Positions 4,907-46,011 of a stretch of 64,000 nt of DNA are shown one piece after another. The position numbers were made by a program, and so were the translations under genes. The DNA comes from Trachythela sp. YZ-2020 (Eukaryota; Cnidaria; Anthozoa; Malacalcyonacea; Clavulariidae). Below the pieces are notes generated by a model that saw only the letters and a program-made list of their open reading frames with translations, was not told the DNA's origin and ran no database searches. Where the stretch lies: positions 4,890,001-4,954,000 of the forward strand of contig JADLSH010000363.1 in the NCBI GenBank assembly GCA_016169945.1, read 5' to 3'. Numbering within the stretch: the stretch's first letter is position 1; each line of letters opens with the position of its first letter.

Positions 4907-5230
4907 ATGGCTGTTTTAATAAGCATTTGGATGTTAATTCTCATCTCAAAAATCCCACAGCCAGGGGAAAGCTTAATGAAGCAAGCAGTTTTTCGCAAAA
5001 GCGTACAAAAACACTTGGCGAATCATGTCATCGAAACAAAACAGGCAGGCAGCGAACGTGAATGTGGTATGTATTGCGTTAGAGATGGATCATGTGCGTC
5101 AGTCAATTATAAAACTTCTGGAATCGGTAAAGGTCTATGTGAGCTCAACAGTGAGACACTTCAAGAGACATCTGAAACCGATGGAAGTGTACATAACCCT
5201 GAGTTCAATCATCTGTCCATCATTAAGAAG
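4907..5230 (+). CDS. Exon 1: signal peptide and PAN/apple domain
   Basis: Translation from ATG 4907 gives a hydrophobic leader MAVLISIWMLILISKIP, a typical signal peptide, which is why I prefer it to the in-frame ATG at 4814. Residues of about 24-108 form a compact PAN_1-like domain: AVFRK strand, the cysteine pair in ECGMYC, SCASVNY, and LCELN near the end. The C-E-L-N ending is characteristic of PAN domains in cnidarian secreted proteins. PAN modules bind proteins or carbohydrates. The exon closes ATTAAGAAG|GTAAGA at 5230/5231, a strong donor in phase 0. Reading through would stop a few codons on, so splicing is expected. It is the head of the mucin-like array gene; a degenerate copy of its first half lies at 3596-3778. 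Confidence 0.8.
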
Positions 5231-5316
5231 GTAAGAAAACAGCAAATATAAATCTTTTCTTTCGTGATCGATCTATGGAGAAATAATTTATTAGTGACGG
5301 AAAAGCCGGTAGTATA

Positions 5317-5610
5317 TAGGTTCATCCCGTTCGATTCCGTTTTGTGAGGGGGAGCACGGTGGAGCATGAGGGGGAGCATCATCATTAATATAAAAGGGAA
5401 AGTCGCACTCATTAGCATGTGAGGTGAGCATCATCATTAGCATATGAGGGTACACATTATATATGCAATGACGTCACGGGATAAGACCAGGCAAGGCGAA
5501 TTTTGCTGAGTTCAACATATTTTGTGGTTACATAATATCAAGTAGAATATGGCTTTGTTATCGTAAACATTTCGATTTATAAACTCCTTATTACTCGTGC
5601 TCCATGGGAG
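5317..5610. repeat. Dispersed repeat, copy A
   Basis: About 290 bp here align in inverted orientation with about 14735-14998. Shared blocks include CCGTTCGAT, GAGCATCATCATTAA, TTAGCATATGAGGGT, TTTGCTGAGTTCA and CGATTTATAAACTCCTTATT. Copy A lacks both the Polinton-like element and the TIR element that interrupt or bound copy B, so it acts as a paralogous empty site. Confidence 0.65.
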
Positions 5611-5754
5611 CGCGAGTCCAGTTCGCGTTGCTCAAAAATTATGTTTTGTTCGTGTTTTCTTGGTCGAGCTTTTGACTTTTTTGCCCAGAATGCGCTGCGC
5701 GTTTGTAATTGCTTCTGCCCTGCGTTGTACAACCTCGTCTTAAGGTTAGTTATT

Positions 5755-6143
5755 AGGGAGTTTACGATCTACGACGCGACTAGCTCGACGACGCGCCTGC
5801 AAAACAAAGATATACGTCATGCAAGACAAAAAGGATGAATAATTTGTGGTCTCAGGGGGTTCCTCAGCAGCGTTGCCATTCTCATGACATCGTCAAATGA
5901 GGAATTTTCACGTCTTCTGAGTAATGTGAAAGCTGGTTGCGTCGTGAGAGCTGTTTTATAACGTTGACCGAACGACAAATATCAGCTAAACATCGGAGTT
6001 TTTTCGCCTAATTTAAACGTTTGTAAGGTTGTTAAAACATGCTTTAGACAATTAAAGCAGTATAGTTACTTCCTGTGGCTTATGTCAAGCATAAATTGAC
6101 GTGGCGTCGTCGAGGTGACCGCGTCGTAGATCGTAAACTCCCT
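5755..6143. mobile_element. TIR element (MITE-like), 389 bp
   Basis: The left end 5755-5778 (AGGGAGTTTACGATCTACGA...) is the exact reverse complement of the right end at 6120-6143, and similarity continues inward through CTCGACGACGC. No coding frame of note. The flanks read ATT on both sides; if the element begins GGGAG, the duplication is TA. The superfamily is therefore unresolved. Confidence 0.7.
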
Positions 6144-6221
6144 ATTTATGTAGCCCTACACGAGTTATGTCTGTGATTATATATAGGGTTAGGGTTGGGG
6201 TTGGGTTAGGATTGGCGTTAA

Positions 6222-6711
6222 GGAGGCTCTCTACAGTTTTAATTCTGTAGCACGCAAATGTGCTCTAAGGCTCATTATTTGTTCATTTTGTAAGGTATGG
6301 TGACGAAACTTGGCCATCAGATTGCCACAATATTGCGGATTACGAAGAACAAAAAACGTTTCTAAATATTTACGTTGCCATGGTAACAACGCGATTTAGA
6401 GATTGTCGTATTTTTATCTTCTTTCTTAATTTTTTTTATTTTCCTTCGGTAAAACTTTTTTATTTTTTGCACACGAGTACCTAACGTACGAAGTATTGAA
6501 ATATGCGATTTTAAAAAAATTCCTCCTAGCCGAATTTTTTTTATTGCAAAAAAAACGTTTTTTTGAGATTTAAAAAAATTCGGCTCCGAGGAATCCGCCA
6601 TATTGTGGCAATCTGATGGCCAAGTCTCGTGACCATACCTTGCAAAATGAGCAAACAATGGACCTTAGAGCACATTTGCGTGCTACAGAATTAAAACTGT
6701 AGGGAGCCTCC
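6222..6711. mobile_element. TTAA-flanked foldback element, 490 bp
   Basis: The element is flanked by TTAA at 6218-6221 and 6712-6715. Its termini are GGAGGCTCTCTACAGTT and, inverted, GGAGGCTCCCTACAGTT. Arms of about 125 bp continue through CTGTAGCACGCAAATGTGCT and CATCAGATTGCCACAATATT around an A/T-rich centre. TTAA target duplications are the signature of piggyBac-type transposition. The 2.7-kb element at 9872-12560 has the same termini. Confidence 0.75.
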
Positions 6712-6715
6712 TTAA

Positions 6716-8364: not shown

Positions 8365-8618
8365 AGTAATAAATTCGTATCTATAATATCGCCTTATACG
8401 AAACAAACGGCTTTCTGAGACGACCAATATAGCGACGCTTACCTAATAAGATTACAAAGTTTCAAGCTTTTATATATAGCAAAGTGTATCCAAGGGAGAT
8501 TTCAACAAGTTTTACAAGCAGAGTTTTCATGCAAATATCGTATATAAACATAAACATTTTGCGGTTATTGCTTTTACAGACCGTATTATCCTTAAATGTC
8601 ATTACTTCCTGAGGAGTA

Positions 8619-9020
8619 TTAACTGTCCGAGTCATTCTCATCGCTACATTCTTCATCCCTTATCCTTCTTGTAGGCTCTCTATCCTCATCGTCCATATTG
8701 AAACACAGCGGTCTTTTCCTTTTGGCGGATGCTAGACTACCGCGTGAATTTCTTTGTCTCTTGTTTCCTCGCCCTGATTGTCGTAGTCCCTGTTCAGCAA
8801 AGTCTTTGACAACTTTCCGTCCACGAGACTTTATTGATTTTGACACATTTTTCCCATCGAGTACATCTTGACCAACTTCTGTTGCTGCTTGTGACTCTCT
8901 TTTGCCAACTGCTTGCGCTCCTTGTTTTAGTATAGGATCTAGCAAGGCTTTTGAAAATACCACCGAGTCCATAACCCCTCTGCATTCTTGCTCCATGAAA
9001 TCCTGCAATACTGCAACCCT
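8619..9020 (-). pseudogene. Adenovirus-pX/core-like small basic protein of the Polinton-like element
   Basis: On the minus strand a glycine/arginine-rich start (QRGYGLGGIFKSL, about 8985-8940) is followed in another frame by a helical, then Arg/Lys-rich segment with GKNVSKSIKSRGRKVVKDFA and a KRKRP cluster. It ends in an acidic tail (DSDS) at 8619. The pattern RG-G-GLGG-F-K-SL followed by an Ala/Gly helix and a basic tail is that of virion core or membrane-active minor proteins in Polinton-like elements. I know the pattern from cnidarian element sequences but could not verify it here. One frameshift near 8945 separates the two parts. Confidence 0.5.
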
Positions 9021-9871: not shown

Positions 9872-12560
9872 GGTGGCTCACTACAGTTAGTACAGATTGG
9901 AACACAATCTATATAGATCAGACGTCATCCTCGCTTCCCACGCGTGGAATCTTCGTGACCCGGGCCACCCGGCAGAAATTTTGAAACAAGCCGCGGGAAG
10001 TTATTTTCGGAGACTTTATATCTGCGAAGAAACCACAAGTTTTTTCATTATAATCGTAAATCTTCGAAATTTAAACAGCACGTATGTTGTTAACCAGTTT
10101 CTAAGCTTTCTTTACTGTCGTTCCAATTGAAGTGTTCCTCAAATATTGATTCTATACATTACCTCGCGCAGACCAATTCATTTGTTCAAGTTCATCGAGA
10201 TATTCATACACTTCCTGTGAAAGTTGACCAATCACAATCCGTATGTGATTTGAATACGAATCAACTGACCAATGAGGAACTGATCCTGCATTGCAGGAAG
10301 TAAACAATATTCAAAAATCAAGAATCCGTTGTTTTCATCATTCATGTAACCGAAATTCTTCAAATGTTCTTCAAATGTGTTTACATTTGTGCTCAGAAAA
10401 ACGTTTAATTGAAATATTGCTTCAATTGTTGAAGATTTTCTAAATGGTTTAGAACCAGAATTGAATAAATATGCAAAGCCGTTGCGAGATCAAGGTATTA
10501 CTTCAACAAATATAACAAATATTCATTTTATTTTTAGAAACTATTAAGCGATCAAACGTGGGGGTTTTCTAATCTATATTTTAAAGGAAAATGTCACTTT
10601 CATCTGTTTACAATATATTTTCCCGTTAACTCTTTTAGTACAGTAAAGTGTATGACAAAAATGACAGGCGTCATTTTATAGTGCAATATAAAATGTCAGT
10701 GGCAAATTTTGGTTTATAGACCAAATAATTTATTGTAAAGGTACGAAGAAAGTTTTTCTAACTTTCAAATTTGTTCTCTGTATGAAATTGTAACAAACTT
10801 TACTGTAATAAGTAATATTATTAGAAACAATATATATTTAATAGTACAATTTTATAGTTTTAGAACACACACATATCACATATGTATTTATGTACTTGCT
10901 TGACATTTATGATTTTAATATTATCTATTCGTATTATATATCAGAATCGAACCTCAAATAGCGCCACAAAAATAAACACTGTCACTGTTTGTCTGATTCA
11001 ATATTACTATATTACAGTAAAGTTTGTTACAATTTCATACAGAGAACAAATTTGAAAGTTAGAAAAACTTTCTTCGTACCTTTACAATAAATTATTTGGT
11101 CTATAAACCAAAATTTGCCACTGACATTTTATATTGCACTATAAAATGACGCCTGGCATTTTTGTCATACACTTTACTGTACTAAAAGAGTTAACGGGAA
11201 AAATATATTGTAAACAGATGAAAGTGACATTTTCCTTTGTAAAATATAGATTAGAAAACCCCACGTTTGATCGCTTAGTTTCTAAAAATAAAACGAATAT
11301 TTGTTATATTTGTTGAAGTAATACCTTGATCTCGCAACGGCTTTGCATATTTATTCAATTCTGGTTCTAAACCATTTAGAAAATCTTCAACAATTGAAGC
11401 AATATTTCAATTAAACGTTTTTCTGAGCACAAATGTAAACACATTTGAAGAACATTTGAAGAATTTCAGTTACATGAATGATGAAAACAACGGATTCTTG
11501 ATTTTTGAATATTGTTTACTTCCTGCAATGCAGGATCAGTTCCTCATTGGTCAGTTGATTCGTATTCAAATCACATACGGATTGTGATTGGTCAACTTTC
11601 ACAGGAAGTGTATGAATATCTCGATGAACTTGAGCAAATGAATTGGTCTGCGCGAGGTAATGTATCGAATCAATATTTGAGGAACACTTCAATTGGAACG
11701 ACAGTAAGTGTGTTTTTTTTACATATATACGTTCAGTATTATCTTTTTTTAATGTTCAAAATCTTCGACTTGTTGCATTGACTATTAAAGATTCTGAAAT
11801 TATATTTTATACTTTGTTCAAGGCAGTCTAGAACTGTCAAAGTAATATAACAGTTTTTAAAGCAATTGAAAGTTTGAAACTTGTTACTCCTGTCTTTCAA
11901 CTTAATTCACAATTAGTGTATGACTTGCTAAACTAGCACATAAAACTACAATACAGACAGTGTAATACGAACTGTCTTATGAAAAATACATGTTTGGATG
12001 CTTTGAAAAGTTTTCACACCGATTTTAGCAAGAAAACAAATTGAAGAGACGTTGGATTAATAGTATTTCCATTTCTTAATATAATCAATCCTCCATTTTC
12101 ATCTCAAACAAGTAAATAATATTTGGCACAAGCCAAGAAGTCGGAATGAAAATACACAACAAAGAACCAAGAATAAAACTACACACGTTCCCTTTCATTT
12201 CGTGTTGTTCAGTGTTCACGCATTATAATTTACACGCATGCGCAAAATGTGATCATGTCGAGTCGATTTACATCAGCAACTTCCAATTTTTTAAAACTTT
12301 GGATAATTGTTAAACAAAGCAACACGAAAAACATATCCAAATTTCAAAATATTCTACAAATAGATTTCTCTGCAATCGAAATTCCAAAATATCTCGAAAA
12401 CCTATTTGTAAACTACCCGTCAAATTTTTATGTTATTCCTTGGTGGACCATTAATCTTCCAAAATAATTTCAGAAAAATTGACAAAGGAAAAAAAATATT
12501 GATTGAAAGCGAAATTTCCTGAAAAGTTCCCAACGTTTTACAGAACTGTAGGGAGCCACC
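9872..12560. mobile_element. 2.7-kb TTAA-flanked element with giant internal palindrome
   Basis: TTAA at 9868-9871 and 12561-12564 flank termini GGTGGCTCACTACAGTT and, inverted, GGTGGCTCCCTACAGTT. These are clearly related to the 490-bp element at 6222. Inside is an inverted repeat of about 0.7 kb. I see no piggyBac-like transposase. Short open frames (11512-11781 and 12249-12467, both +) have no recognised domain. It looks like a non-autonomous passenger-type element nested in the Polinton-like element. Confidence 0.7.
10112..11707. repeat. Inverted repeat with arms of about 700 bp
   Basis: Positions 10112 to about 10818 are reverse complementary to about 11002-11707, with a spacer of about 185 bp and the axis near 10910. 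Matched landmarks are GTACGAAGAAAG at 10741 with CTTTCTTCGTAC ending at 11079, and the reverse-complement pair around 10120 and 11700. Divergence by eye is very low (a few mismatches and single-base indels), so the palindrome is young or maintained by conversion. Confidence 0.8.
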
Positions 12561-12965: not shown

Positions 12966-13018
12966 GAGCGGATTAACAGATTTATTATCATATACACCTT
13001 GACGTTCGTGGTGTAAAC

Positions 13019-17226: not shown

Positions 17227-17284
17227 AAATCTCCAGACCCCGTTACATCAAGCACTCCACCGACATCGGATAAAATTCCGACAA
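17227..17284 (+). CDS. Exon 2: Ser/Thr/Pro linker of the PAN-mucin
   Basis: The exon follows a pyrimidine-rich stretch and TTTAAAG and ends CCGACAA|GTAAGT, a strong donor. In phase 0 it reads KSPDPVTSSTPPTSDKIPT plus one base. Entry in phase 0 fits exon 1, and exit in phase 1 fits the repeat exons. Composition (Ser, Thr, Pro, Asp, Lys) is already mucin-like, and the closing KIPT resembles the repeat endings. The acceptor lacks a long uninterrupted tract, so the exact start is less sure than the end. It lies 12 kb after exon 1. Confidence 0.55.
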
Positions 17285-17815: not shown

Positions 17816-17866
17816 CAGTTAAACCTATACAGACAAAAGCAGAAAGTTCAACAACCCAAACAACGT
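17816..17866 (+). CDS. Exon 3: first 17-codon mucin repeat exon
   Basis: Preceded by TTATCTTCCTTATAG and followed by GTAAGATC, this 51-nt exon in phase 1-1 encodes x-VKPIQTKAESSTTQTT. The upstream intron shows the same TGTTAAC branch-like motif and pyrimidine tract as the main array 6 kb downstream. It is therefore a displaced first unit. The Gypsy and LINE relics that follow were evidently inserted into what was a continuous array, since broken repeat exons lie at 20217 and 23890. Confidence 0.75.
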
Positions 17867-18129
17867 GTAAGATCACAATATATACTTGGTATTGCTGTTG
17901 CCAAACTGTAGTTCTTGCCGGCTAGCGCGAGACGCCTTCGCATATCATTATCCATCAACCAATCACAATCTTGTTTCTATATACTGATCAATTGCAATGA
18001 AATTTTTCGGTAATAATTTCAAGTCCTACTATACGCGAATGTAGAAGCGACAAACATTTTCCTTAACTTCATCGTACATCACTAGACATCATTACCCATA
18101 ATTATATGTCATTCTACATAGCTATATGT

Positions 18130-18420
18130 CATCATACATCATGATGCATGTATATCACAATATGACACGGTCTACCATCATCAGTATCATACAGCATCAT
18201 CTACAATCATCTAGCATCATTCAGCATCACCTACCATCATCTAGCATAATTCAGCATCATCTACCATCATCTAACATCATTCAGCGTAATCTACAATCAT
18301 CTGGCATCATTCAGCATCATCTACCATCATCTACTATCATCTACCATCATTCAGCATAATCTACCAACATCTAGCATCATCTAGCATCATTCAGCACCAT
18401 CTACCATCCTCTAGAATCAT
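18130..18420. repeat. Minisatellite of CATCATCTACCATCATTCAG type
   Basis: Roughly 10-bp units (CATCATCTAC, CATCATCTAG, CATCATTCAG) in alternating order, about 290 bp. It produces a spurious frame of Ser, Ile and His. Located in the transposon-filled intron. Confidence 0.8.
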
Positions 18421-18696
18421 CACGCCTGGCATAAAGTTAGTCAAAATCGCCAGAGGAAAATGTGCAACAATTTTGCTGGAAGTGTCAACAAATTTTGGGG
18501 GACTGGTGACGAATTTCGTGAGGTGAAAATTGGGTATTCATTTTATATTTTATAAGGGCCACAGTAATTGGTGTTAAACTGTTGTGGTTTCCCCGCCTTT
18601 TAATTTTTATTTTGCATGTGTTTGGGAGTATTTAATTTATTCCCTAATTTGCAATATTGTTAGCATAGGCGAAGCTAAATAAATAAATAAATAAAA

Positions 18697-19960
18697 CCTG
18701 GACCGATTGTCTTGTTTACCTGAACGATATTGCCATCTTCGCGAAAGATCTACCAGAGCATAACCGTCGTTTGGAAGCCGTACTTCGTGCTGGATTAAAG
18801 TTGAATGCCAAGAAATGTAAATTGTTCGAGGAAAGGACGGTGATATTGGGACGTGTAGTGAGTCGAGATGGGATCGCGACCGATCCTGAGAAAGTTAAAG
18901 CAGTGCAGCGATTTCCAGAACCCTGTAACGTGTCAAGTCTTCGAGCTTTTCTTGGCTGTGTTGGCTACTACCGGCAATTTATTCCCAATTTTGCGGAAAT
19001 TGCGGCACCCTTGTACAAACTGGAACAAAAGGAATCAATCTTCAAGTGGACAAAACAATGTCAGGACTCATTCGATAAATTTGGCATACCCAAGTTTTGA
19101 TCTACCGTTTATCGTAGATACTGATGTTAGCGATAAAGGCTTGGGCGCTGTGTTATCACAAATCCAAGATGGAAAACAGCCGGTGATTGCATACGCAGCC
19201 AAACCGAGTTTCTCCAAACCGCAACGCAACTACAGTAACACCAGGAAGAAGCTGCTCGTATTAGTATGAGGGATTGAGCATTTTGAAGCGTATCTACTCG
19301 GGAGAAACTTTCGAGTTGGCACAGACCATAACGCGTTGAAATGGCTGCGCAGTTTCAAACAACCCAAAGGACAAGTAGCGCGTTGGATAGAACGCCTAGC
19401 GGAATTTAACTTCACCGTGGAATTTACCTTCTGAACTGCAGTTATATCAACAAGAATATCCAGCCATTAGGCAGGCAATCACATGGGTTAAAGCGAAGAA
19501 TAGACTCGACCGTCGCAAGATAACCCGCCTTGAGCCCGAGATTGGCAGTTTATGGAGCCAGTTTAGTCGTTTCAAACAGGAGAACGATTTGTTATTCCGA
19601 GAGTACGAAAGCGAAGAAGGTGCCTCAAAACTTCTGTGGTTATATTTGCCAAGGAAACTTGTACCCGAAGTCCTGAGAATGCTGCACGATAGGTCTACGG
19701 CTGGTCATCTGGGAGTACAGAAAACTTCGCAAGGAGTGATATCCGCACCAAGATGCCAGGAGATTATCAGATGTGCCAACACTCTTGGAATCAAGGCTTT
19801 CTATGCCCTCCACGCCGTATGGAGACAGACTCATGCCAGGAAGTGTAGAAAGAATAGCCAGTACTGACAATGAAGTTGGACAAGGAACTAGACCAAGCCG
19901 CAATAGAAGGCAGCCTCCATGGATGTAGGATTTCGAACTTTCAAATAGACGTTAGGACAG
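18697..19960 (+). pseudogene. Gypsy (Ty3-like) pol relic, RT to integrase
   Basis: The sequence opens inside reverse transcriptase at TDCLVYLNDIAIF; the catalytic Y-x-D-D box has become Y-L-N-D. It continues through the RT thumb (SLRAFLGCVGYYRQFIPNFA), then after a frameshift through RNase H (VDTDVSDKGLGAVLSQ, TDHNALKWL). A TGA near 19432 follows, and then the integrase zinc region (MLHDRSTAGHLGVQKT). A large internal deletion joins this to a C-terminal tail (RPSRNRRQPPWM). The 5' LTR, gag, protease and palm N-terminus are missing. The left edge abuts an (AAAT)n tail at 18680-18695. Confidence 0.85.
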
Positions 19961-20006
19961 TTATTTATGAACTGTTCAAGGGACTTGGTTTTTGAGGAGG
20001 AAACGA

Positions 20007-20218
20007 TGTTGAGTTGAAGTTACTTATTTGCATGTGAATGTTTATAGTTTAAATGAAGCTTAAATAATCGTTATCGCGGGCACAGAATTGTGTGAGCTGA
20101 CGTTAGTTTTACTGTTTTTGTAGTGGATTTGGAGAGCTCGTTTTTGGACAATTAAGTTTATCTATGTTTAACTGTTCTATTCTATGAATAAATTATTTAT
20201 ATAACACAGTTAAACCTA
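20007..20218 (+). mobile_element. 3' LTR of the Gypsy relic
   Basis: A polypurine tract GAGGAGGAAACGA (19994-20006) is followed by TG at 20007, and the segment ends in CA at 20217-20218, just before GTTAAACCTACACC of a mucin exon. An AATAAA signal (about 20189) lies near the end. TG...CA boundaries and the purine tract fit an LTR of 212 bp. The matching 5' LTR is not in place, so the limits rest on one copy. Confidence 0.55.
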
Positions 20219-20256
20219 CACCAAGAAAAGAAGGTACCAGAGTCAAGGTATTGCAT
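20217..20256 (+). pseudogene. Broken mucin repeat exon at the Gypsy junction
   Basis: CAGTTAAACCTACACCAAG followed by AAAAGAAGGTACC matches the start of the 51-nt repeat exons, but the usual acceptor is replaced by the LTR and the 3' half has decayed. It marks the array as having once been continuous across this gap. Confidence 0.55.
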
Positions 20257-20769
20257 GTCCGCCCTAACACGTCTTAGTTTGGGATCCGTTATTTTCGTTT
20301 GTTTATGGCTGTCATTGACACTCTATAAAGTACAGGTGGACAGCTTTGCCTCACTAAAGCAAAAATCTGTGTGTACAGAAATTGGCTTTTATCAGGAGAA
20401 ATTAGTATTTAAAACGTCGATACGGGTTTCAACTTTGTCTTACAACTCGAGTTCAAGATCTGGGATCTACGCGTGTCCTTGGCTGTTGCAATGCAACAGT
20501 TCAACTAGTACAAATCGATAGTTGTGGCTTCCTGAAACCTATACTTTGCTCTCAGAAAATTATCAAATTTGGATAATCTGTGCCTTGGAAAGTCGAATTT
20601 TTTCTCATATTTAACTTTGCCTCGTAAACACGGGAAGATATTTGCATAACAAATGGCATATTTGACACGCTTGATAGATCCCCACCGCTGAAATTACCAT
20701 TCTATAGGCAAAAACAGTCTTCAATTAAAATTAATCATCAATGAAAAACAGTTCTTGCATCGTAAAATT

Positions 20770-23391
20770 AAAAGATCTGCTCGGCCGAGTTCAGCAAACT
20801 CGAGTGCAACACGCCAACTTTTGCTATGTGGCGGAGATATTGCTACAAACCCTGGTCCGTGCACAAATACAACAAAGCTTCCCAAGACCAAGTGCCCAAA
20901 ATGCGAAAAAACAGTTAGGAAAAACCAATAGAGCGTGGTGTGTGAGGTATGTTATGATCAATTTCACGTGAAATGTGCAGATCTGGAATGTCAAAAATGA
21001 AAAAGCAATTAAACGAAAATCAGTTAATGGTCAAATACTGGATCTGTTCTCGCTGTTTTCTCTCCAAGCTTCCTTTTTACTCCATGAGAACTATAGACCA
21101 GCAGATCGAAGGCACTAACCAAGATGACTCAATTTCAACTGACACTTTTAATGAACATCTAGAGGCACTTACCAGCTGTCCAAATCAGCTTAAGCTAGTC
21201 CACATCAATACACAGAGCATGGTTTCTTCATTTGATGAGCTCCTTCTCCTTATAAAAGAGTACCTTTATGACGTAATAACGACGAGTGAAACATCTTTAA
21301 AGAACAACTCCCACCTTTTGAATTATGTGACTATCGCTGGATATTCAAACATCTTCCGAAACCGTGATGATATCCGTGGTGGAGGTTTTGGAGTGTACCT
21401 TAGAGACGCAATTGACTTGAGCACATTTGGTTGGAGATTCCCGGACGTAACAGACACAGCAAGTTGGTGCTCGGTGTAATGCATTGTTCTGAACGTATGC
21501 AGAATTTTCAAACGTGGATGGACAAAGTCGAAAACCTATTAAGTCAATTGAACACGCTATGGGACGGTCTTATCGTAATTACAGGCGATTTTAACGTGGA
21601 CCTTTTGAAACTCGAGAGTCAGTCAATCTACATCAGCACGTACAACGCGCTAGCGGGTAACGTCAAGTTCCAAGACGCAGGGCCTTTTTTAAGAAATCGT
21701 TAGTGGGGGGGCCATCATCGAAAGGGGACGTAACAAGTAGGTGGTGTATTACAGGTGTGGGAAGCTGAAGGGGGGTCTGGGGGTCCTCCCCAGAAAATTT
21801 TTGTATTCTTGAGTCTCTGTGGCTTGATTTCCTGCATTTTCAGAGACAATTTTTGATATATCCCATCTAAACGGAGCCAGGTTTTGTTGTGAGAATACCA
21901 TAACTTTCCTCTAAACTCAGTTTTTTCCCCTTTTTTGCTTATATTTTGGGCGAAAGGGACCTTCACTGGGGGGGGCCAAAATAGCTTACTGGGGGGCCAA
22001 CATGGGGGCTGGGGGGGCCTTGGCCCATCCAGTACCTTAGTTAAAAAAGGCCCTGCCAAGACGATGATCGATCGCATTATTACGAACAAACCTAATCGTA
22101 TTACGTACTGTAATGTTTTACCTTGCCCTACAATCAGTGATCATTATGGCCCGTACGCATGTATAAATATTAGAATCAGCCGATTTCAATCGCAGTTTAA
22201 GTTTATTCAATACGAAAAGAAATTTGACAAAGAGGCTTTCATCAAGGATTTCTCATGACCTCCCACTTAACCTTGTATATAGCACTGATTACCTGGATCA
22301 TCAACTGGAAATTTTCAGCTCGTTGTTCAAATCATGTCTGGATAAATATGCTCCACTTCGCAGAAGAAAAATTGCAAGTCCTCCGGCACCATCGTTGAAT
22401 ACGGAAGATATACGGAAACTTCAAAATGAAAGAAATGAACTAAAGCCCGTTGCTCATCAGACGAATTCGGAGAGTGTGTGGAAAAGGTTTCGCGAAGTCA
22501 GCAATAGCTTAAAGACCAAAATTAAGAAGATCAAGCGATCCTTCTATCAGAAAGCCTTATCTTCAAGTAAGCCAAAAGAACTATGGCAAACAATCTACCG
22601 TATCATTCATCCCAATCCCCAACCAATTAAGGCTGATCCTGATTATTTGAACAACTACTTCAGCTCTACCTCCCAACGTCTCGTTGGTTCTACACCATCG
22701 ACTAAGGAAGACTTAGGAAAAATGGTCAACACTCTGATTGAACGTGGTGATTTAAGCTTATTTAACTTGCGTCAAGTTACTTATGCAGAGGTATTAAAGG
22801 AGCTTACCACAATGAGAAAAGACTGCTCAACGGGTCCAGCTCGAATACAAGCGAAATACCTAAAGCTAGCTGCTGAATATATAGCCTCACCGCTGACGCA
22901 CATCATTGACAGCTTTATAACATGCTAAAGGTTCCCAGATGCTTGGAAGTGTACCCGAGTTTCACCAATACCGAAGATAATCACTCCAATAGAGGCAGAC
23001 CATTTTAGGCCCATTTCAATTTTACCAGCCCTGTCTAAGGTGTATGAAAGATTAATGCTTCATCAGCCCACAGAATGTATTGAACACCAACATTTCTGGA
23101 GACCGTAAAGGACATTCGACAACGACAGTTTTATTACGGATACGGGGGATATAATACACGCAATGAAGAAAGGGCAGGTGACGATATTTGCATTTGCAGA
23201 TTTCTCGAAGACGTTTCATACTGTCGATTATTCGATAGTATTACGAAAGCTACATTCGATTGGTTTCCCAAGTTAATCTCTGAATTGGATCCTTAGCTTT
23301 CTAACCGGAAGATCACAATTTCAAATCAACAACAAATACTCTGACTTAGTTAACATCCAGTTTGGAGTTCCTCGGGGGTCAATTGTCTGTC
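20770..23391 (+). pseudogene. CR1/L2-like LINE ORF: 2A-like motif, PHD-like finger, endonuclease, partial RT
   Basis: In frame from about 20770: RQLLLCGGDIATNPGP, then a Cys/His cluster (CPKCEKTV, CEVCYDQFHVKC) resembling the PHD-like finger of CR1-group LINEs. Next is an APE endonuclease with LKLVHINTQSM, SETSLK, GGGFGVYL and, after a frameshift, VITGDFNVDLL. After a nested MITE (21678-22055) follow SDHYGPYA, a linker and reverse transcriptase (KIITPIEADHFRPISILPAL, FADFSKTFHTVDY, GVPRGSIV). It stops at about 23391 before the catalytic Y-A-D-D box. Several stops and frameshifts make it dead. Losing the 3' end rather than the 5' end points to a later deletion, not to truncated reverse transcription. 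Confidence 0.85.
21678..22055. mobile_element. hAT-type MITE with 8-bp target duplication
   Basis: Terminal inverted repeats CAGGGCCTTTTTTAA (21678-21692) and its complement ending at 22055. The 8-bp duplication CCAAGACG stands at 21670-21677 and 22056-22063. CAGGG ends and 8-bp duplications define hAT elements. The body is G-tract-rich on the + strand near both ends. It splits the LINE endonuclease domain. Confidence 0.9.
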
Positions 23392-23889
23392 ACTCCTCAT
23401 GATAAAACATCGCGGTTTTTATGTAAACAGCAATATTTTTATATATATATATATTTTTTGTGGATCTAAATTTATATGAACTATATATTTGTATTTTTAG
23501 TTCTATTAATACTAAATAGTTAGGGACCAGATGTATAGCTACTCTGTAGATAAGCTGGAAATAACTCATTATTATTATTATTACAATTATTGTTGCTGTA
23601 CGAAGGCTAACCGTCGCAAGAAAGAAAGATACAGACATCTAAGAGCTCTCAGAGCATCATAGCTCTGAGAGCAACAGTCTATATATTTTCGGCAGAAGAA
23701 ATAAGCCCAGGAATAATCCAGATTTATTGCATTTTTACTACCTGCTATCGATATGCAGTGTAGAGAATGGACCTATTTGTTTAATATAGTGAACTGTCTC
23801 TCTTATTTTCTCGATCAAATGGTAAATCCAATGTGATATTTGTCAAATTTATCATGTTATTAATAAAGATTTCTGTTGTTTAAATTATT
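23392..23889. other. Non-coding junction with a short hairpin
   Basis: AT-rich sequence between the LINE remnant and the array, with TTATTATTATTATTA near 23568-23582. A perfect stem-loop lies at about 23645-23672: arms GCTCTCAGAGC and GCTCTGAGAGC, 6-base loop. No gene seen. Confidence 0.5.
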
Positions 23890-23922
23890 ATATTAAAAGA
23901 AAGTTCAACAACTTAACCAACA
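23890..23922 (+). pseudogene. 5'-truncated mucin repeat exon
   Basis: AAAGAAAGTTCAACAACTTA followed by ACCAACAT and GTAAGATC preserves the 3' half and donor of a repeat exon. The acceptor and first half are missing at the junction with unrelated DNA. It marks the left edge of the main array. Confidence 0.6.
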
Positions 23923-24007
23923 TGTAAGATCACGATACAAACACTAATGTAAAGCGTTTATCAGTGTTTTAAAATTTTCCTAATTTGCAAAACATTATCT
24001 TTATTAG

Positions 24008-27000
24008 CAGTTAAACCTACACCGACGAAGGCAGAAAGTTCAACAACTCAACCAACATGTAAGATCACAATATAAAAACCAAAGTAACATTTTTAGTTTT
24101 TTTCAAAATGATCTTCTTTTTAGTTAACTTTTACAATATTGACTTCTTTATATAGCAGTTAAACCTAGACCCACAAAATCAGAAAGTTCAACAACTCAAC
24201 CAACATGTAATTTCACAATATATAAACCAATGTAACATTTTTAATTTTTTCAAAATGATATTGTTTTTAGTTAACTCTTATAATATTGACTTCTTTACAT
24301 AGCAGTTAAACCTACACCCACAAAATCAGAAAGCTCAGCAACTCAACCAACACGTAAGATCACAATATAGAAACCAATGTAACATTTTTAATTTTTTCAA
24401 AATGATGTTGTTTTTAGTTAACTTTCATAATGCTACTTCTTCTTTATAGCAGTTAAACCGACACCGACAAAAGGAGAAAGTTCAACAACCCAAGCAACAT
24501 GTAAGTTCACAATATAGAAACCAATGTAAAATCGTTCAATCATTTTTAGTTTTTTCAAAATGATGTTGTTTTTAGTTAACTCTCGTAATATTACTCTTCT
24601 TTATAGCAGTTAAACCGACACCGAGAAAAGGAGAAAGTTCAACAACTCAACCAACATGTAATTTCACAATATAGAAACCAATGTAACATTTTTAGTTTTT
24701 TCAAAATGATATTGTTTTTAGTAACTTTCAGAATATTACTTCTTCTTTATAGCAGGTAAACCGACACCGACAAAAGGACAAAGTTCGACAATCCAAGCAA
24801 CAAGTAAGTTCACAATATAGAAACCAATGTAAAATTGTTTAATATTTTCAAAATGTTATTGTTTTTAGTATGTTAACTTTCATAATATTACATCTTCTTT
24901 ATAGCAGTTAAACCTACAACAACAAAAGCAGAAAGTTCAACAACTCAACCAACATGTAATTTCACAATATATAAACCAATGTAACATTTTTAATTTTTTC
25001 AAAATGATATTGTTTTTAGTTAACTTTTATAATATTGACTTCTTTACATAGCTGTTAAACCTACACCCACAAAAGCAGAAAGTTCAACAACTCAACCGAC
25101 ACGTAAGATCACAATATAGAAACCAATGTAACATTTTTAATTTTTTCAAAATGATGTTGTTTTTAGTTAACTTTCATAATGTTACTTCTTCTTTATAGCA
25201 GTTAAACCGACACCGACAAAAGGAGAAAGTTCAACAACCCAAGCAACATGTAAGTTCACAATATAGAAACCAATGTAAAATCGTTCAATATTTACAAAAT
25301 GTTATTGTTTTTAGTATGTTAACTTTCATAATATTACATCTTCTTTATAGCAGTTAAACCTACACCAACAAAAGCAGAAAGTTCAACAACTCAACCAACA
25401 TGTAATTTCACAATATATAAACCAATGTAACATTTTTAATTTTTTCAAAATGATATTGTTTTTAGTTAACTTTTATAATATTGACTTCTTTACATAGCTG
25501 TTAAACCTACACCCACCAAAGCAGAAAGTTCAACAACCCAACCGACACGTAAGATCACAATATAGAAACCAATGTAACATTTTTAGTTTTTTCAAAATGA
25601 TGTTGTTTTTAGTTAACTTTCATAATGTTACTTCTTCTTTATAGCAGTTGAACCGACGTCAACAAATGCAGAAAGTTCAACAACTCAACCAACATGTAAT
25701 TTCACAATATAGAAACCAATGTAACATTTTTAGTTTTTTCAAAATGATGTTGTTTTTAGTTAACTTTCATAATGTTACTTCTTCTTTATAGCAGTTGAAC
25801 CGACACCGACAAAAGGAGAAAGTTCAACAACCCAAGCAACATGTAAGTTCACAATATAGAAACCAATGTAAAATCGTTTAATATTTTCAAAATGTTATTG
25901 TTTTTAGTATGTTAACTTTCATAATATTACATCTTCTTTATAGCAGTTAAACCTACACCAACAAAAGCAGAAAGTTCAACAACTCAACCAACATGTAATT
26001 TCACAATATATAAACCAATGTAACATTTTTAATTTTTTCAAAATGATATTGTTTTTTGTTAACTCTTATAATATTGACTTCTTTACACAGCAGTTAAACC
26101 TACACCCACAAAAGCAGAAAGTTCAGCAACTCTACCAACACGTAAGATCACAATATAGAAACCAATGTAACATTTTTAGTTTTTTCAAAATGATGTTGTT
26201 TTTAGTTAACTTTCATAATATTACTTCTTCTTTATAGCAGTTAAACCGACACCGACAAAAGGAGAAAGTTCAACAACGCAAGCAACATGTAAGTTCACAA
26301 TATAGAAACCAATGTAACATTTTTAGTTTTTTCAAAATGATATTGTTTTTAGTAACTTTCAGAATATTACTTCTTCTTTATAGCAGGTAAACCGACACCG
26401 ACAAAAGGACAAAGTTCGACAATCCAAGCAACAAGTAAGTTCACAATATAGAAACCAATGTAAAATTGTTTAATATTTTCAAAATGTTATTGTTTTTAGT
26501 ATGTTAACTTTCATAATATTACATCTTCTTTATAGCAGTTAAACCTACAACAAAAGCAGAAAGTTCAACAACTCAACCAACATGTAATTTCACAATATAT
26601 AAACCAATGTAACATTTTTAATTTTTTCAAAATGATATTGTTTTTAGTTAACTTTTATAATATTGACTTATTTACATAGCTGTTAAACCTACACCCACAA
26701 AAGCAGAAAGTTCAACAACTCAACAACACGTAAGATCACAATATAGAAACCAATGTAACATTTTTAGTTTTTTCAAAATGATGTTGTTTTTAGTTAACTT
26801 TCATAATATTACTTCTTCTTTATAGCAGTTAAACCGACACCGACAAAAGGAGAAAGTTCAACAACCCAAGCAACATGTAAGTTCACAATATAGAAACCAA
26901 TGTAACATTTTTAGTTTTTCAAAATGATATTGTTTTTAGTAACTTTCAGAATATTACTTCTTCTTTATAGCAGTTAAACCTACACCAACAAAAGCAGAAA

Positions 27001-30000: not shown

Positions 30001-33000
30001 AGAAACCAATGTAACATTTTTAGTTTTTTCAAAATGATATTGTTTTTAGTAACTTTCAGAATATTACTTCTTCTTTATAGCAGGTAAACCGACACCGACA
30101 AAAGGACAAAGTTCGACAATCCAAGCAACAAGTAAGTTCACAATATAGAAACCAATGTAAAATTGTTTAATATTTTCAAAATGTTATTGTTTTTAGTATG
30201 TTAACTTTCATAATATTACATCTTCTTTATAGCAGTTAAACCTACACCAACAAAAGCAGAAAGTTCAACATCTCAACCAACATGTAATTTCACAATATAT
30301 AAACCAATGTAACATTTTTAATTTTTTCAAAATGATATTGTGTTTAGTTAACTTTTATAATATTGACTTATTTACATAGCTGTTAAACCTACACCCACCA
30401 AAGCAGAAAGTTCAACAACTCAACCGACACGTAAGATCACAATATAGAAACCAATGTAAAATTGTTCAGTTGTTTTTAAAAATGAAATTTTTTTTATTTT
30501 ACTTCCAAAATATTATCTTCTTTATAGCAGTTAAACCTACGCCGACGTCAACAAATGCAGAAAGTTCAACAACTCAACCAACATGTAATTTCACAATATA
30601 GAAACCAATGTAACATTTTTAGTTTTTTCAAAATGATATTGTTTTTAGTAACTTTCAGAATATTACTTCTTCTTTATAGCAGGTAAACTGACACCGACAA
30701 AAGGACAAAGTTCAACAACCCAAGCAACAAGTAAGTTCACAATATAGAAACCAATGTAAAATTGTTTAATATTTTCAAAATGTTATTGTTTTTAGTATGT
30801 TAACTTTCATAATATTACATCTTCTTTATAGCAGTTAAACCTACACCAACAAAAGCAGAAAGTTCAACAACTCAACCAACATGTAATTTCACAATATATA
30901 AACCAATGTAACATTTTTAATTTTTTCAAAATGATATTGTTTTTAGTTAACTTTTATAATATTGACTTCTTTACATAGCTGTTAAACCCACACCTACCAA
31001 AGCAGAAAGTTCAACAACTCAACCGACACGTAAGATCACAATATAGAAACCAATGTAAAATTGTTCAATTGATTTTAAAAATGAAATTTTTTTATTTTAC
31101 TTCCAAAACATTATCTTCTTTATAGCAGTTAAACCTACGCCGACGTCAACAAATGCAGAAAGTTCAACAACTCAACCAACATGTAATTTCACAATATAGA
31201 AACCAATGTAACATTTTTAGTTTTTTCAAAATGATATTGTTTTTAGTTAACTTTCATAATGTTACTTCTTCTTTATAGCAGTTGAACCGACACCGACAAA
31301 AGGAGAAAGTTCAACAACCCAAGCAACATGTAAGTTCACAATATAGAAACCAATGTAAAATCGTTTAATATTTTCAAAATGTTATTGTTTTTAGTATGTT
31401 AACTTTCATAATATTACTTCTTCTTTATAGCAGTTAAACCTACACCAACAAAAGCAGAAAGTTCAACAACTCAACCAACATGTAATTTCACAATATATAA
31501 ACCAATGTAACATTTTTAATTTTTTCAAAATGATATTGTTTTTAGTTAACTTTCATAATGTTACTTCTTCTTTATAGCAGTTAAACCGACACCGACAAAA
31601 GGAGAAAGTTCAACAACTCAACCAACATGTAATTTCACAACATATAAACCAATGTAGCATTTTTAATTTTTTCAAAATGATATTGTTTTTGGTTAACTCT
31701 TATAATATTGACTTCTTTACACCCACAGTTAAACCTACACCCACAAAAGCAGAAAGTTCAGCAACTCTACCAACACGTAAGATCACAATATAGAAACCAA
31801 TGTAACATTTTTAGTTTTTTCAAAATGATCTTGTTTTTAGTTAACTTTCATAATATTACTTCTTCTTTATAGCAGTTAAACCGACACCGACAAAAGGAGA
31901 AAGTTCAACAACACAAGCAACATGTAAGTTCACAATATAGAAACCAATGTAAAATCGTTTAATATTTTCAAAATGATGTTGTTTTTAGTTAACTTTCATA
32001 ATATTAAATCTTCTTTATAGCAGTTAAACCTACACCAACAAAAGCAGAAAGTTCAACAACTCAACCAACATGTAATTTCACAATATAGAAACCAATGTAA
32101 CATTTTTAGTTTTTTCAAAAAGATGTTGTTTTTAGTTAACTTTCATAATGTTACTTCTTCTTTATAGCAGTTGAACCGACACCGACAAAAGGAGAAAGTT
32201 CAACAACACAAGCAACATGTAAGTTCACAATATAGAAACCAATGTAAAATCGTTTAATATTTTCAAAATGTTATTGTTTTTAGTATGTTAACTTTCATAA
32301 TATTACTTCTTCTTTATAGCAGTTAAACCTACACCAACAAAAGCAGAAAGTTCAACAACTCAACCAACATGTAATTTCACAATATATAAACCAATGTAAC
32401 ATTTTTAATTTTTTCAAAATGATATTGTTTTTAGTTAACTCTTATAATATTGACTTCTTTACATAGCAGTTAAACCTACATCCACAAAAGCAGAAAGTTC
32501 AGCAACTCTACCAACACGTAAGATCACAATATAGAAACCAATGTAACATTTTTAGTTTTTTCAAAATGATGTTGTTTTTAGTTAACTTTCATAATATTAC
32601 TTCTTCTTTATAGCAGTTAAACCGACACCGACAAAAGGAGAAAGTTCAACAACCCAAGCAACATGTAAGTTCACAATATAGAAACCAATGTAACATTTTT
32701 AGTTTTTTCAAAATGATATTGTTTTTAGTAACTTTCAGAATATTACTTCTTCTTTATAGCAGGTAAACCGACACCGACAAAAGGACAAAGTTCGACAATC
32801 CAAGCAACAAGTAAGTTCACAATATAGAAACCAATGTAAAATTGTTTAATATTTTCAAAATGTTATTGTTTTTAGTATGTTAACTTTCATAATATTACAT
32901 CTTCTTTATAGCAGTTAAACCTACACCAACAAAAGCAGAAAGTTCAACAACTCAACCAACATGTAATTTCACAATATATAAACCAATGTAACATTTTTAA

Positions 33001-42000: not shown

Positions 42001-45000
42001 AATATAGAAACCAATGTAAAATCGTTTAATATTTTCAAAATGTTATTGGTTTTAGTAACTTTCAGAATATTACTTCTTCTTTATAGCAGGTAAACCGACA
42101 CCGACAAAAGGACAAAGTTCGACAATCCAAGCAACAAGTAAGTTCACAATATAGAAACCAATGTAAAATTGTTTAATATTTTCAAAATGTTATTGTTTTT
42201 AGTATGTTAACTTTCATAATATTACATCTTCTTTATAGCAGTTAAACCTACACCAACAAAAGCAGAAAGTTCAACAACTCAACCAACATGTAATTTCACA
42301 ATATATAAACCAATGTAACATTTTTAATTTTTTCAAAATGATATTGTTTTTAGTTAACTCTTATAATATTGACTTCTTTACATAGCAGTTAAACCTACAC
42401 CCACAAAAGCAGAAAGTTCAGCAACTCTACCAACACGTAAGATCACAATATAGAAACCAATGTAACATTTTTAGTTTTTTCAAAATGATGTTGTTTTTAG
42501 TTAACTTTCATAATGTTACTTCTTCTTTATAGCAGTTAAACCGACACCGACAAAAAGAGAAAGTTCAACAACCCAAGCAATATGTAAGTTCACAATATAG
42601 AAACCAATGTAACATTTTTAGTTTTTTCAAAATGATGTTGTTTTTAGTTAACTTCATAATATTACTTCTTCTTTATAGCAGTTAAACCTACACCCACCAA
42701 AGCAGAAAGTTCAACAACTCAACCGACATGTAATTTCACAATATAGAAACCAATGTAAAATCGTTTACTATTTTAAAAATGTTATAGTTTTTAGTATGTT
42801 AACTTTCATAATATTACATCTTCTTTATAGCAGTTAAACAGTAATTTCACAATATATAAACCAATGTAACATTATTAATTTTTTCAAAATGATATTGTTT
42901 TTAGTTAACTCTTATAATATTGACTTCTTTACATAGCAGTTAAACCTACACCCACAAAAGCAGAAAGTTCAGCAACTCTACCAACACGTAAGATCACAAT
43001 ATAGAAACCAATGTAACATTTTTAGTATTTTCAAAATGATGTTGTTTTTAGTAACTTTCAGAATATTATTTCTTCTTTATAGCAGGTAAACTGACACCGA
43101 CAAAAGGACAAAGTTCGACAATCCAAGCAACAAGTAAGTTCACAATATAGAAACCAATGTAAAATTGTTTAATATTTTCAAAATGTTATTGTTTTTAGTA
43201 TGTTAACTTTCATAATATTACATCTTCTTTATAGCAGTTAAACCTACACCAACAAAAGCAGAAAGTTCAACAACTCAACCAACATGTAATTTCACAATAT
43301 ATAAACCAATGTAACTTTTTAGTTTTTTCAAAAAGATCTTGTTTTTAGTTAACTTTCATAATATTACTTCTTCTTTATAGCAATTAAACCTACACCCACC
43401 AAAGCAGAAAGTTCAACAACTCAACCGACACGTAAGATCACAATATACAAACCAATGTAAAATTGTTCAGTTGTTTTTAAAAATGATATTGTTTTTATTT
43501 TACTTCCAAAATATTATCCTCTTCATAGCAGTTAAGCCTACGCTGACGTCAACAAATGCAGAAAGTTCAACAACTCAACCAACATGTAATTTCACAATAT
43601 AGAAACCAATTTAACATTTTTAGTTTTTCAAAATGATATTGTTTTTAGTAACTTTCAGAATATTACTTCTTCTTTATAGCAGGTAAACCGACACCGACAA
43701 AAGGACAAAGTTCAACAACCCAAGCAACATGTAAGTTCACAATATATAAACCAATGTAACATTTTTAGTTTTTTCAAAATGATATTGTTTTTAGTAACTT
43801 TCAGAATATTATTTCTTCTTTATAGCAGTGAAACCTACACCATGTAATTTCACAATATATAAACCAATGTAACATTTTTAGTTTTTTCAAAATGATGTTG
43901 TTTTTAGTTAACTTTCATAATGTTACTTCTTCTTTATAGCAGTTAAACCGACACCGACAAAAGGAGAAAGTTCAACAACCCAAGCAACATGTAAGTTCAC
44001 AATATAGAAACCAATGTAACATTTTTAGTTTTTTCAAAATGATATTGTTTTTAGTAACTTTCAGAATATTATTTTTTCTTTATAGCAGGTAAACCGACAC
44101 CGACAAAAGAACAAAGTTCGACAATCCAAGCAACAAGTAAGTTCACAATATAGAAACCAATGTAAAATTGTTTAATATTTTCAAAATGTTATTGTTTTTA
44201 GTATGTTAACTTTCATAATATCACATCTTCTTTATAGCAGTTAAACCTACACCAACAAAAGCAGAAAGTTCAACAACTCAACCAACATGTAATTTCACAA
44301 TATATAAACCAATGTAACATTTTTAATTTTTTCAAAATGATATTGTTTTTAGTATGTTAACTTTCATAATATTACATCTTCTTTATAGCAGTTAAACCTA
44401 CACCCACCAAAGCAGAAAGTTCAACAACTCAACCGACACGTAAGATCACAATATAGAAACCAATGTAAAATTGTTCAGTTGTTTTTAAAAATGAAACTTC
44501 CAAAATATTATCTTCTTTATAGTATTTAAACCTACGCCGACGTCAACAAATGCAGAAAGTTCAACAACTCAACCAACATGTAATTTCACAATATAGAAAC
44601 CAATGTAACATTTTTAGTTTTTTCAAAATGATGTTGTTTTTAGTTAACTTTCATAATGTTACTTCTTCTTTATAGCAGTTGAACCGACACCGACAAAAGG
44701 AGAAAGTTCAACAACCCAAGCAACATGTAAGTTCACAATATAGAAACCAATGTAAAATCGTTTAATATTTTCAAAATGTTATTGTTTTTAGTATGTTAAC
44801 TTTCATAATATTACATCTTCTTTATAGCAGTTAAACCTACACCAACAAAAGCAGAAAGTTCAACAACTCAACCAACATGTAATTTCACAATATATAAACC
44901 AATGTAACATTTTTAATTTTTTCAAAATGATATTGTTTTTAGTTAACTCTTATAATATTGACTTCTTTACATAGCAGTTAAACCTACACCCACAAAAGCA

Positions 45001-45860
45001 GAAAGTTCAGCAACTCTACCAACACGTAAGATCACAATATAGAAACCAATGTAACATTTTTAGTTTTTTCAAAATGATGTTGTTTTTAGTTAACTTTCAT
45101 AATATTACTTCTTCTTTATAGCAGTTAAACCGACACCGACAAAAGGAGAAAGTTCAACAACCCAAGCAACATGTAAGTTCACAATATAGAAACCAATGTA
45201 ACATTTTTAGTTTTTTCAAAATGATATTGTTTTTAGTAACTTTCAGAATATTACTTCTTCTTTATAGCAGGTAAACCGACACCGACAAAAGGACAAAGTT
45301 CGACAACCCAAGCAACATGTAAGTTCACAATATAGAAACCAATGTAAAATCGTTTAATATTTTCAAAATGTTATAGTTTTTAGTATGTTAACTTTCATAA
45401 TATTACATCTTCTTTATAGCAGTTAAACCTACACCAACAAAAGCAGAAAGTTCAACAACTCAACCAACATGTAATTTCACAATATATAAACCAATGTAAC
45501 ATTTTTAATTTTTTCAAAATGATATTGTTTTTAGTATGTTAACTTTCATAATATTACATCTTCTTTATAGCAGTTAAACCTACACCCACCAAAGCAGAAA
45601 GTTCAACAACTCAACCGACACGTAAGATCACAATATAGAAACCAATGTAAAATTGTTCAGTTGTTTTTAAAAATGAAATTTTTTTATTTTACTTCCAAAA
45701 TATTATCTTCTTTATAGCAGTTAAACCTACGCCGACGTCAACAAATGCAGAAAGTTCAACAACTCAACCAACATGTAATTTAGTTATTTGCAAAATATCT
45801 CCATTATAGCAGTTAATTCTACACAGAGAAAAGCAGAGAGTTCAACAACTCAACCAGCAC
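24008..45860 (+). CDS. Tandem array of about 148 mini-exons encoding 17-residue mucin repeats
   Basis: Units of about 148 bp repeat without interruption. Each has an acceptor in a TTCTTTATAG|CAG context, a 51-nt exon, a GTAAG or GTAATT donor, and an intron of about 97 nt with a GTTAAC branch-like site about 30 nt before the acceptor. Exons are phase 1-1, so any number can be joined or skipped in frame. The commonest peptide is VKPTPTKAESSTTQPT plus a split codon (Ser, Pro or Thr). Other types read VKPTPTKAESSATLPT, VKPTPTKGESSTTQAT and GKPTPTKGQSSTIQAT. A 57-nt form adds Thr-Ser (PTPTSTNAESS). Thr, Ser and Pro make up about 60% of residues, the signature of a mucin domain for O-glycosylation. 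Total about 2,500 residues, estimated from array length divided by period. A few units carry frame-changing lesions. Confidence 0.75.
35439..35456 (+). CDS. 18-nt microexon variant, copy 1
   Basis: TTCTTTATAG is followed by CAGTGAAACCTACACCAT and GTAATT. A deletion has shortened the unit's exon to 18 nt while keeping acceptor, donor and phase 1-1, encoding x-VKPTP. The identical variant recurs at 43826-43843, showing that it spread by segmental duplication within the array. Confidence 0.6.
43826..43843 (+). CDS. 18-nt microexon variant, copy 2
   Basis: Same sequence and splice context as the exon at 35439-35456, 8.4 kb away in the array. In-frame and phase 1-1. Confidence 0.6.
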
Positions 45861-45957
45861 GTAAGTTCACAATATAGAAACCAATGTAAAATTGTTCAGT
45901 TTTTTTAAAATGATGTTGTTTTTTTATTTAATTTGCAAAATATTGTCTTCTTTATAG

Positions 45958-46011
45958 AAGTTAAATCTACACCTACGCCAACAAAAGCAGAAAGTTGTGA
46001 TTTCCCGTAAA
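45958..46011 (+). pseudogene. Last repeat exon, cut and capped by a LINE
   Basis: After TTCTTTATAG the exon reads AAGTTAAATCTACACC and on to GCAGAAAGT, then leaves the repeat consensus at about 45996 and enters LINE sequence. In the exon frame the LINE supplies TGT GAT TTC CCG TAA, so a transcript reading through would end in Cys-Asp-Phe-Pro. The normal donor is gone and no further repeat units follow downstream. The original 3' part of the gene is either beyond the window or lost. Confidence 0.55.

Follow-up and report, generated by a model that had tools for sequence, protein, structure and literature searches.

Does a row of about 150 mini-exons behind a single PAN exon encode a giant secreted mucin, or has it grown out of another kind of gene? 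The question is raised by a stretch of 64,000 nucleotides from Trachythela sp. YZ-2020, referred to here as the window. A first-pass annotation had described the locus as a giant PAN-mucin gene with an array of separately spliced exons. The features discussed below are:

4907–5230, + strand: exon 1, with a signal-like N-terminus, the PAN domain (PAN_1, E = 1.7e-7), and a phase-0 donor
17227–17284, + strand: linker exon, entered at phase 0 and left at phase 1, donor GTAAGT
17816–17866, + strand: first mini-exon, cut off from the array by transposable elements
17867–23897, no strand assigned: intron-like long stretch with a reverse-transcriptase piece (18687–19097) and a LINE-like region (about 20.7–23.9 kb), recognized from open reading frames and weak RVT_1 and Exo_endo_phos matches under the Pfam cut-off
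24008–45860, + strand: tandem array with 148 phase 1-1 mini-exons, most of them 51 nt long; the units measure about 147 bp
45958–46010, + strand: last exon, a mini-exon front fused to LINE sequence, in-frame stop at 46008–46010
45989–46743, + strand: 5′-truncated LINE copy with AATAAA at 46716, sharing 8 bp, AGAAAGTT, with the array exon; recognized from its dispersed copies

Exon structure and predicted product

The first two exons were recovered as annotated. Exon 1 opens with an ATG at 4907 that is followed by a hydrophobic N-terminal start, the Pfam search returned PAN_1, and the phase-0 donor GTAAGA begins at 5231. The linker carries the reading from phase 0 to phase 1, and linker-like exons were present at five other loci (L011, L013, L019, L024, and L025).

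A splice-site scan gave 149 mini-exons with standard splice sites, all on the strand of the PAN exon and the linker, which agrees with the roughly 150 phase 1-1 exons noted earlier. Their lengths are 51 nt (135 exons), 57 nt (8), 18 nt (2), and 48 nt (1), and the remaining three break the frame (50, 49, and 10 nt). The extent of the array had to be revised, as one unit stands alone at 17.8 kb and the array proper begins at 24.0 kb. Tandem repeat analysis (TRF) gave a score of 29137 across 23998–45778, which excludes chance, with a period of about 147 bp and further periods of 299 and 446 bp. In one further unit, with its core at 31749, the first AG is lost and a second AG would yield an in-frame exon of 48 nt. 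The first array copy (23898) lacks an acceptor and the exon front, and the intron at 45775–45809 measures 35 nt only, which is probably too short for splicing. An acceptor at 20406 was discarded as false, since no donor goes with it, and seven low-scoring anchor matches outside the units were left out. The 148 units comprise 53 distinct exon-plus-donor sequences; no series of at least five exon types is repeated exactly within the array, which therefore does not demonstrate any recent duplication of large blocks. A stray two-unit fragment of the array lies elsewhere on the contig.

Conceptual splicing of the 146 in-frame mini-exons gave a product of 2,619 residues that after the linker consists of 28.6% T, 15.8% S, and 15.6% P, i.e. 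the tandem Ser/Thr/Pro-rich repeats characteristic of mucins. If all 149 mini-exons are included the frame shifts and a stop follows at residue 724. The three frame-breaking exons would need to be skipped if the array is transcribed. The suggestion that length is adjustable by exon skipping is compatible with the phase 1-1 arrangement, which is predicted to permit dropping any number of in-frame exons. When 910 residues of the predicted product were searched, 7,983 candidates were scored and none was a homolog at E ≤ 0.001; limits on candidate number and query length make this a weak result, as the PAN part does have relatives.

A family of PAN-stalk-lectin genes

The genome contains at least 143 matches to the PAN exon and at least 150 to a C-terminal exon. 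In all 16 paralogs examined the PAN exon was followed on the same strand by mini-exon candidates (1–11) and the C-terminal exon; these loci had been picked by their match to the array unit and are a non-random sample of the PAN matches. At six of 20 fetched loci (L009–L013 and L024) no PAN exon passed the filter. Among the 16 paralogs, L022 has an inner stop and L026–L028 gave partial or broken-frame matches, leaving a set of 12 for dN/dS analysis. Several mini-exon candidates were low-scoring, and those of 24 nt look more like the end of the PAN exon than like separate exons. From our reading of the candidates, ordinary paralogs would carry about one to ten mini-exons, and clear arrays of six and ten units occur at paralogs in this genome.

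Because 16 paralogs show the same order of PAN exon and mini-exons on a single strand, and five loci have linker-like exons, the PAN exon, linker, and mini-exons of the window were taken as one gene. Exon 1 is 65–79% identical to its counterparts in intact paralogs, and the mini-exons behind it are S/T-rich and phase 1-1 as in those genes. The paralog order, the octocoral relatives described below, and the predicted fold together identify the mini-exon as the module from which the stalk is built in a family of PAN-stalk-lectin genes. The predicted structure of the C-terminal domain matched intelectin-1 (E = 1.9e-7, with low TM-scores of 0.35/0.43), FGL1 (4.8e-5), and FIBCD1 (1.5e-4), suggesting a domain loosely like intelectin and fibrinogen-like domains. 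No Pfam domains were found in it, and a PDB sequence search returned angiopoietin-2 only (E = 0.012).

Loss of the lectin end

The C-terminal lectin exon is absent from the window and the next 30 kb, and none of the matches listed lies on the contig past 4,285,082. Since the intelectin/fibrinogen-like domain was not found, we describe the window copy as truncated and family-derived rather than as a complete member. A stand-alone mucin gene was rejected because the paralogs carry the C-terminal domain and the terminus of the window copy is LINE-derived. Homology to the array stops at 45996, and both the stop codon and the AATAAA lie within the LINE, which has dispersed copies in the genome. The in-frame stop is at 46008–46010, which corrects the first-pass annotation, and the last exon was dismissed as a native terminal exon because it is LINE-derived.

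Selection on the PAN exon and on the array

The reading frame of the PAN exon is open. On its own branch, in a dN/dS analysis with the 12 paralogs kept, it showed 15 nonsynonymous and 13 synonymous changes (ratio 0.30, P = 0.002), indicating constraint. Such constraint may be older than the truncation; judged from the sequence, the open, constrained exon may also mean that the window gene still works. About 500 bp upstream of exon 1 are conserved with the paralogs.

Mucin-like sequence is normally under weak constraint. Inside the array, purifying selection was not detectable from the rare variants counted across 146 introns and 134 of the 51-nt exons. Counted as occurrences rather than as independent events, these were 24 nonsynonymous changes over 36.3 sites, 7 synonymous over 13.7, and 45 over 96 intron columns, with diversities of 0.119 in exons and 0.100 in introns (P = 0.69 and 0.23); 6 of the 31 rare exon variants came from one diverged unit at 45810. 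Stop codons did not occur among the rare variants (P = 0.18 by chance, based on a hand count of 8 in 150). Compared with 25 paralog units, the array gave an identity of 0.81 for exons and 0.78 for introns, with the exon value higher in 19 of the 25. This slight excess, the missing stops, and the fact that only 3 of 149 exons are out of frame count against a satellite-like array. Selection within the array was rejected as proof of function, as none was seen, and we infer that the array evolves mostly as a satellite and not as a selected mucin.

Origin of the array

The locus is probably a truncated family member in which the tandem amplification of one stalk exon has run away, the array now being mostly satellite-like. 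The source is an octocoral-type gene family whose secreted products combine a PAN domain and a Ser/Thr/Pro-rich stalk with an intelectin/fibrinogen-like domain; the window copy is truncated at its 3′ end. Its exon-plus-intron stalk unit has multiplied to some 150 copies, for which unequal crossing-over between units of near-identical sequence is the likeliest cause, and a 5′-truncated LINE joins the array at the 8-bp microhomology. The rest of the gene is missing, lectin exons included, and the frame is closed by the LINE-derived stop and AATAAA. With its lectin end lost to a jumping gene, the window copy may no longer be a working gene. If it is transcribed, phase 1-1 units could be kept or skipped to give secreted, PAN-headed stalks of variable length.

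That the locus is a pseudogene whose array is never transcribed and owes its homogeneity to unequal exchange alone is possible, if somewhat doubtful. The lost lectin exons, the LINE at the gene end, the neutral variant pattern, and the stray two-unit fragment would all fit a dead satellite, but the open PAN exon with its ratio of 0.30 and the conserved upstream region would not. The latter two observations, with the 2,619 residues obtained by in-frame joining and the stop and AATAAA provided by the LINE, instead favor a working giant PAN-mucin. Splicing and translation of the array would then yield a secreted S/T/P-rich protein of at most about 2,600 residues that ends in the LINE-derived exon and is under selection for its length, not for its precise sequence. 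We consider this unlikely in view of the three frame-breaking exons, the 35-nt intron, the array without detectable purifying selection, and the lack of a named homolog of the array product in a search of limited reach. Similarly improbable is the bolder version in which a lectin gene became a new giant secreted PAN-mucin through the LINE. It would have dropped its lectin end and taken its terminal exon, stop codon, and polyadenylation signal from the LINE, and some 146 symmetric stalk exons would allow stepwise changes in product length through skipping and through differences in array length between individuals. Long near-identical tandem repeats are difficult to assemble, and the array could in principle have been over-expanded or misjoined. 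An assembly artefact is nevertheless very improbable, given 53 distinct sequences among 148 units, no exactly repeated run of five types, and shorter arrays of the same kind at paralogs.

Amplification of the stalk exon in a truncated copy makes the window array a striking natural case of exon amplification. As sister genes carry the exon in roughly one to ten copies and the window gene has about 150, the route from an exon to a mucin-like array can be traced. A large family of PAN-lectin genes with modular stalks is also revealed in Trachythela sp. YZ-2020. If expressed, the array would pose a stringent test of the spliceosome on some 150 near-identical consecutive exons, and of whether array length alters a secreted protein.

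Comparison with known systems

At E ≤ 0.001 there were 153 homologs, and among the best 120 of them the best named relatives are octocoral proteins annotated as uncharacterized 'skeletal organic matrix protein 5-like' (USOMP5-like). The closest of these anthozoan proteins among the matches listed are from Dendronephthya gigantea and Paramuricea clavata. They share with the family a PAN domain, a short linker, and a C-terminal domain with SCKEL...GGWTLVMK.... A long repeat stalk was present in none of the 15 sequences examined; the window copy, by contrast, lacks the C-terminal domain and carries about 150 units.

Schistosome micro-exon genes likewise combine a signal peptide with short exons that are mostly multiples of three, but have 10 to 20 of them, long introns, and no single homogeneous array (PMC10526429). 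Modular spider silk genes also encode protein repeats by tandem exon and intron repeats and are under concerted evolution; they encode silk, with no lectin stalk (PMC2576457). The title of a 1988 schistosome paper concerns tandemly repeated exons. Nearest in architecture are the polymorphic mucins of Schistosoma mansoni (SmPoMuc), a multigene family in which each repeat unit is a short exon of its own within tandem repeats of exon plus intron, with a 27-bp exon, units of about 1 kb, up to 20 units per gene, and transcripts with up to 100 repeats (PMC2576457). The window array has this organization too, with 51-nt exons in about 150 units of about 147 bp, but it encodes another protein; the likeness is one of architecture only, the relatives of the PAN and C-terminal parts being anthozoan. 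The initial statement that no described system is exactly like this one went too far, since SmPoMuc already provides tandem mucin exons that are spliced one by one; the window array exceeds them in unit number.

Structure of the mini-exon array

The window lies in a 578 Mb genome (contig C332, positions 4,890,001-4,954,000). The PAN-encoding first exon and the linker exon described in the first-pass annotation were both found, with the splice phases proposed there:

4907-5230, exon 1 with PAN domain, phase-0 donor
17227-17284, linker exon, phase 0 to 1

A partial copy of the start of the PAN exon is present upstream of exon 1 (3668-3775), and similar pieces occur 5' of many paralog PAN exons.

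Between 24.0 and 45.8 kb the sequence repeats in tandem with a unit of ~147 bp; 299 and 446 bp were reported as further periods. Each unit carries a short exon with an AG acceptor on one side and a GTAA donor on the other. A splice-site scan identified 149 mini-exons, one at 17816-17866 and 148 within 24008-45860. This matches the ~150 exons expected initially, but their supposedly uniform length of 51 nt applies to 135 of the 149; eight are 57 nt, two 18 nt and one 48 nt long, and three break the frame. One extra array unit has lost the first AG and retains a second AG in frame. The acceptor reads TAGCAG in 134/149 mini-exons and is a tandem acceptor of the NAGNAG type, at which the exon start could shift by 3 nt with the frame kept.

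Exon-plus-donor sequences fall into 53 distinct types among the 148 array units, a few of which are common. Since no run of five or more exon types is repeated exactly within the 148-unit array, large recent block copies were not seen at that level. The array most probably arose by unequal crossing-over.

If all exons are joined the frame shifts at the unit at position 26680 and a stop follows at residue 724. A product close to the ~2,500 residues suggested earlier is predicted (2,619 residues) when the three frame-breaking exons are omitted. Splicing of the 35-nt intron at 45775-45809 is probably impossible.

Paralogs and the C-terminal domain

A 501-base piece of the array gave 57 matches in the genome, and the PAN exon at least 143 at E<=0.001, including that of the window itself (150 of 273 candidates scored). 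Twenty 10-kb loci were fetched on array-unit matches, and are thus not a random sample; the filter retained 16 paralog PAN exons. All 16 have between 1 and 11 mini-exon candidates downstream of the PAN exon on the same strand, and likewise a C-terminal exon. The clearest arrays are those of L020, with ten units of 48-57 nt and one longer candidate, and L017, with six units; linker-like exons occur in L011, L013, L019, L024 and L025. The C-terminal exon of L020 has at least 150 genome matches (150 of 161 candidates scored). The ~500 bp 5' of exon 1 are ~79-88% alike in many paralogs.

On another contig, seven PAN-exon matches with ~2 kb spacing (C346:2848409-2862085) score nearly equally against the window exon. 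A stray two-unit array piece, 92% by DNA search, is found ~1 Mb upstream on the window's contig (L009, 6992-7282); the sequence before it resembles the end of a GPCR gene. No PAN-exon match was found in L009 or L010.

A search with the joined L020 protein gave 153 homologs at E<=0.001, of which 120 were listed. The top-ranking ones belong to the octocorals Dendronephthya gigantea and Paramuricea clavata, and many of these carry the name uncharacterized skeletal organic matrix protein 5-like; lower ranks include stony corals, anemones and a sponge. These affinities suggest that the source animal is an octocoral. A long repeat stalk is absent from all 15 homolog sequences inspected. A structure model of the C-terminal domain (P0003; 33 sequences, mean pLDDT 87.7) matched human intelectin-1 (E=1.9e-7, TM 0.35/0.43) and also fibrinogen-like domains, e.g. 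FGL1 and FIBCD1. Because the TM-scores are low, the predicted domain is labelled intelectin/fibrinogen-like, with "-like" used loosely.

Absence of the C-terminal exons

No C-terminal exon was found in the window or the next 30 kb, and none of the matches listed (150 of 161 candidates scored) lies between contig position 4,285,082 and the contig end at 5,207,032. Array homology stops at 45996, at a dispersed element:

45989 to ~46743, dispersed element with copies in the genome

Eight further copies cover >700 bases at 87-93% identity. Its reading frame resembles the last part of a LINE-encoded reverse transcriptase; Pfam gave no significant match. Array and element overlap by 8 bp (AGAAAGTT), a microhomology, and both the stop at 46008-46010 and the AATAAA at 46716 lie within the element. 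The sequence beyond the element is non-array, so the element did not simply insert into an array that continues on its far side.

At the other end, 6 kb containing retroelement-like frames separate the first unit (17816-17866) from the array, the first copy of which has lost its acceptor. At 23890-23930 and again at 45989-45999 a mini-exon is broken by a LINE-like element, and the two breaks fall at almost the same position in the exon (GAAAGTT), which may reflect coincidence, target preference or a single rearrangement.

Other features of the window are:

10112-11707, nested inverted repeats (outer arms 432 nt, 99% complementary, 732 nt apart; inner arms 193 nt, 99%, 199 nt apart)
47464-48550, 8-bp satellite, ~136 copies, orientation opposite to the other two
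53236-54015, open frame, otubain-like (Peptidase_C65, E=1.2e-4, slightly below the Pfam cut-off)
55259-57015, 8-bp satellite, ~220 copies
57885-58025, 8-bp satellite, ~18 copies
59094-60767, minus strand, P-element-like transposase pieces (TNP-like_RNaseH_N, E=2.8e-39; Tnp_P_element, E=6.7e-23)

Selection on the PAN exon and the array

Changes unique to the window PAN exon, counted where 12 paralogs are unanimous, comprise 15 nonsynonymous and 13 synonymous substitutions (per-site ratio 0.30, P=0.002). Pairwise dN/dS against these paralogs was 0.27-0.48; between paralogs the median was 0.62 (n=59 pairs). The constraint on the PAN exon may be older than the truncation.

Rare variants in the array comprise 24 nonsynonymous changes over 36.3 sites, 7 synonymous over 13.7 sites and 45 in introns over 96 columns, and diversity is 0.119 in exons vs 0.100 in introns. 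No departure from neutrality was detected in the rare-variant or exon/intron comparison (P=0.69, 0.23), and stop codons are absent among the rare variants (P=0.18). In 25 paralog units identity was 0.81 for exons vs 0.78 for introns, the exon being higher in 19, a weak sign of past constraint. On these results the array is regarded as a coding exon by descent in which present-day constraint was not detected.

Comparison with known systems

Literature searches on tandem exon duplication in mucins, and on cnidarian mucins with tandem repeats, exons and the PAN domain, returned no title on a comparable array. The parts of the red coral skeletome report that were covered name a mucin-like and a fibrinogen-related protein and no comparable array (PMC7853314), and USOMP-5 appears in the Acropora millepora skeletal proteome (PMC4043741). 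The polymorphic mucin (SmPoMuc) genes of Schistosoma mansoni carry a 27-bp exon inside ~1-kb tandem repeats, with at most 20 per gene and up to 100 repeats in transcripts (PMC2576457). A 1988 paper cited in PMC10526429 refers in its title to 81-base S. mansoni exons repeated in tandem. Of six papers retrieved on exons of this kind, three name schistosomes in the title. Within the literature searched, the scale of the array and its setting in a lectin stalk appear to be new.
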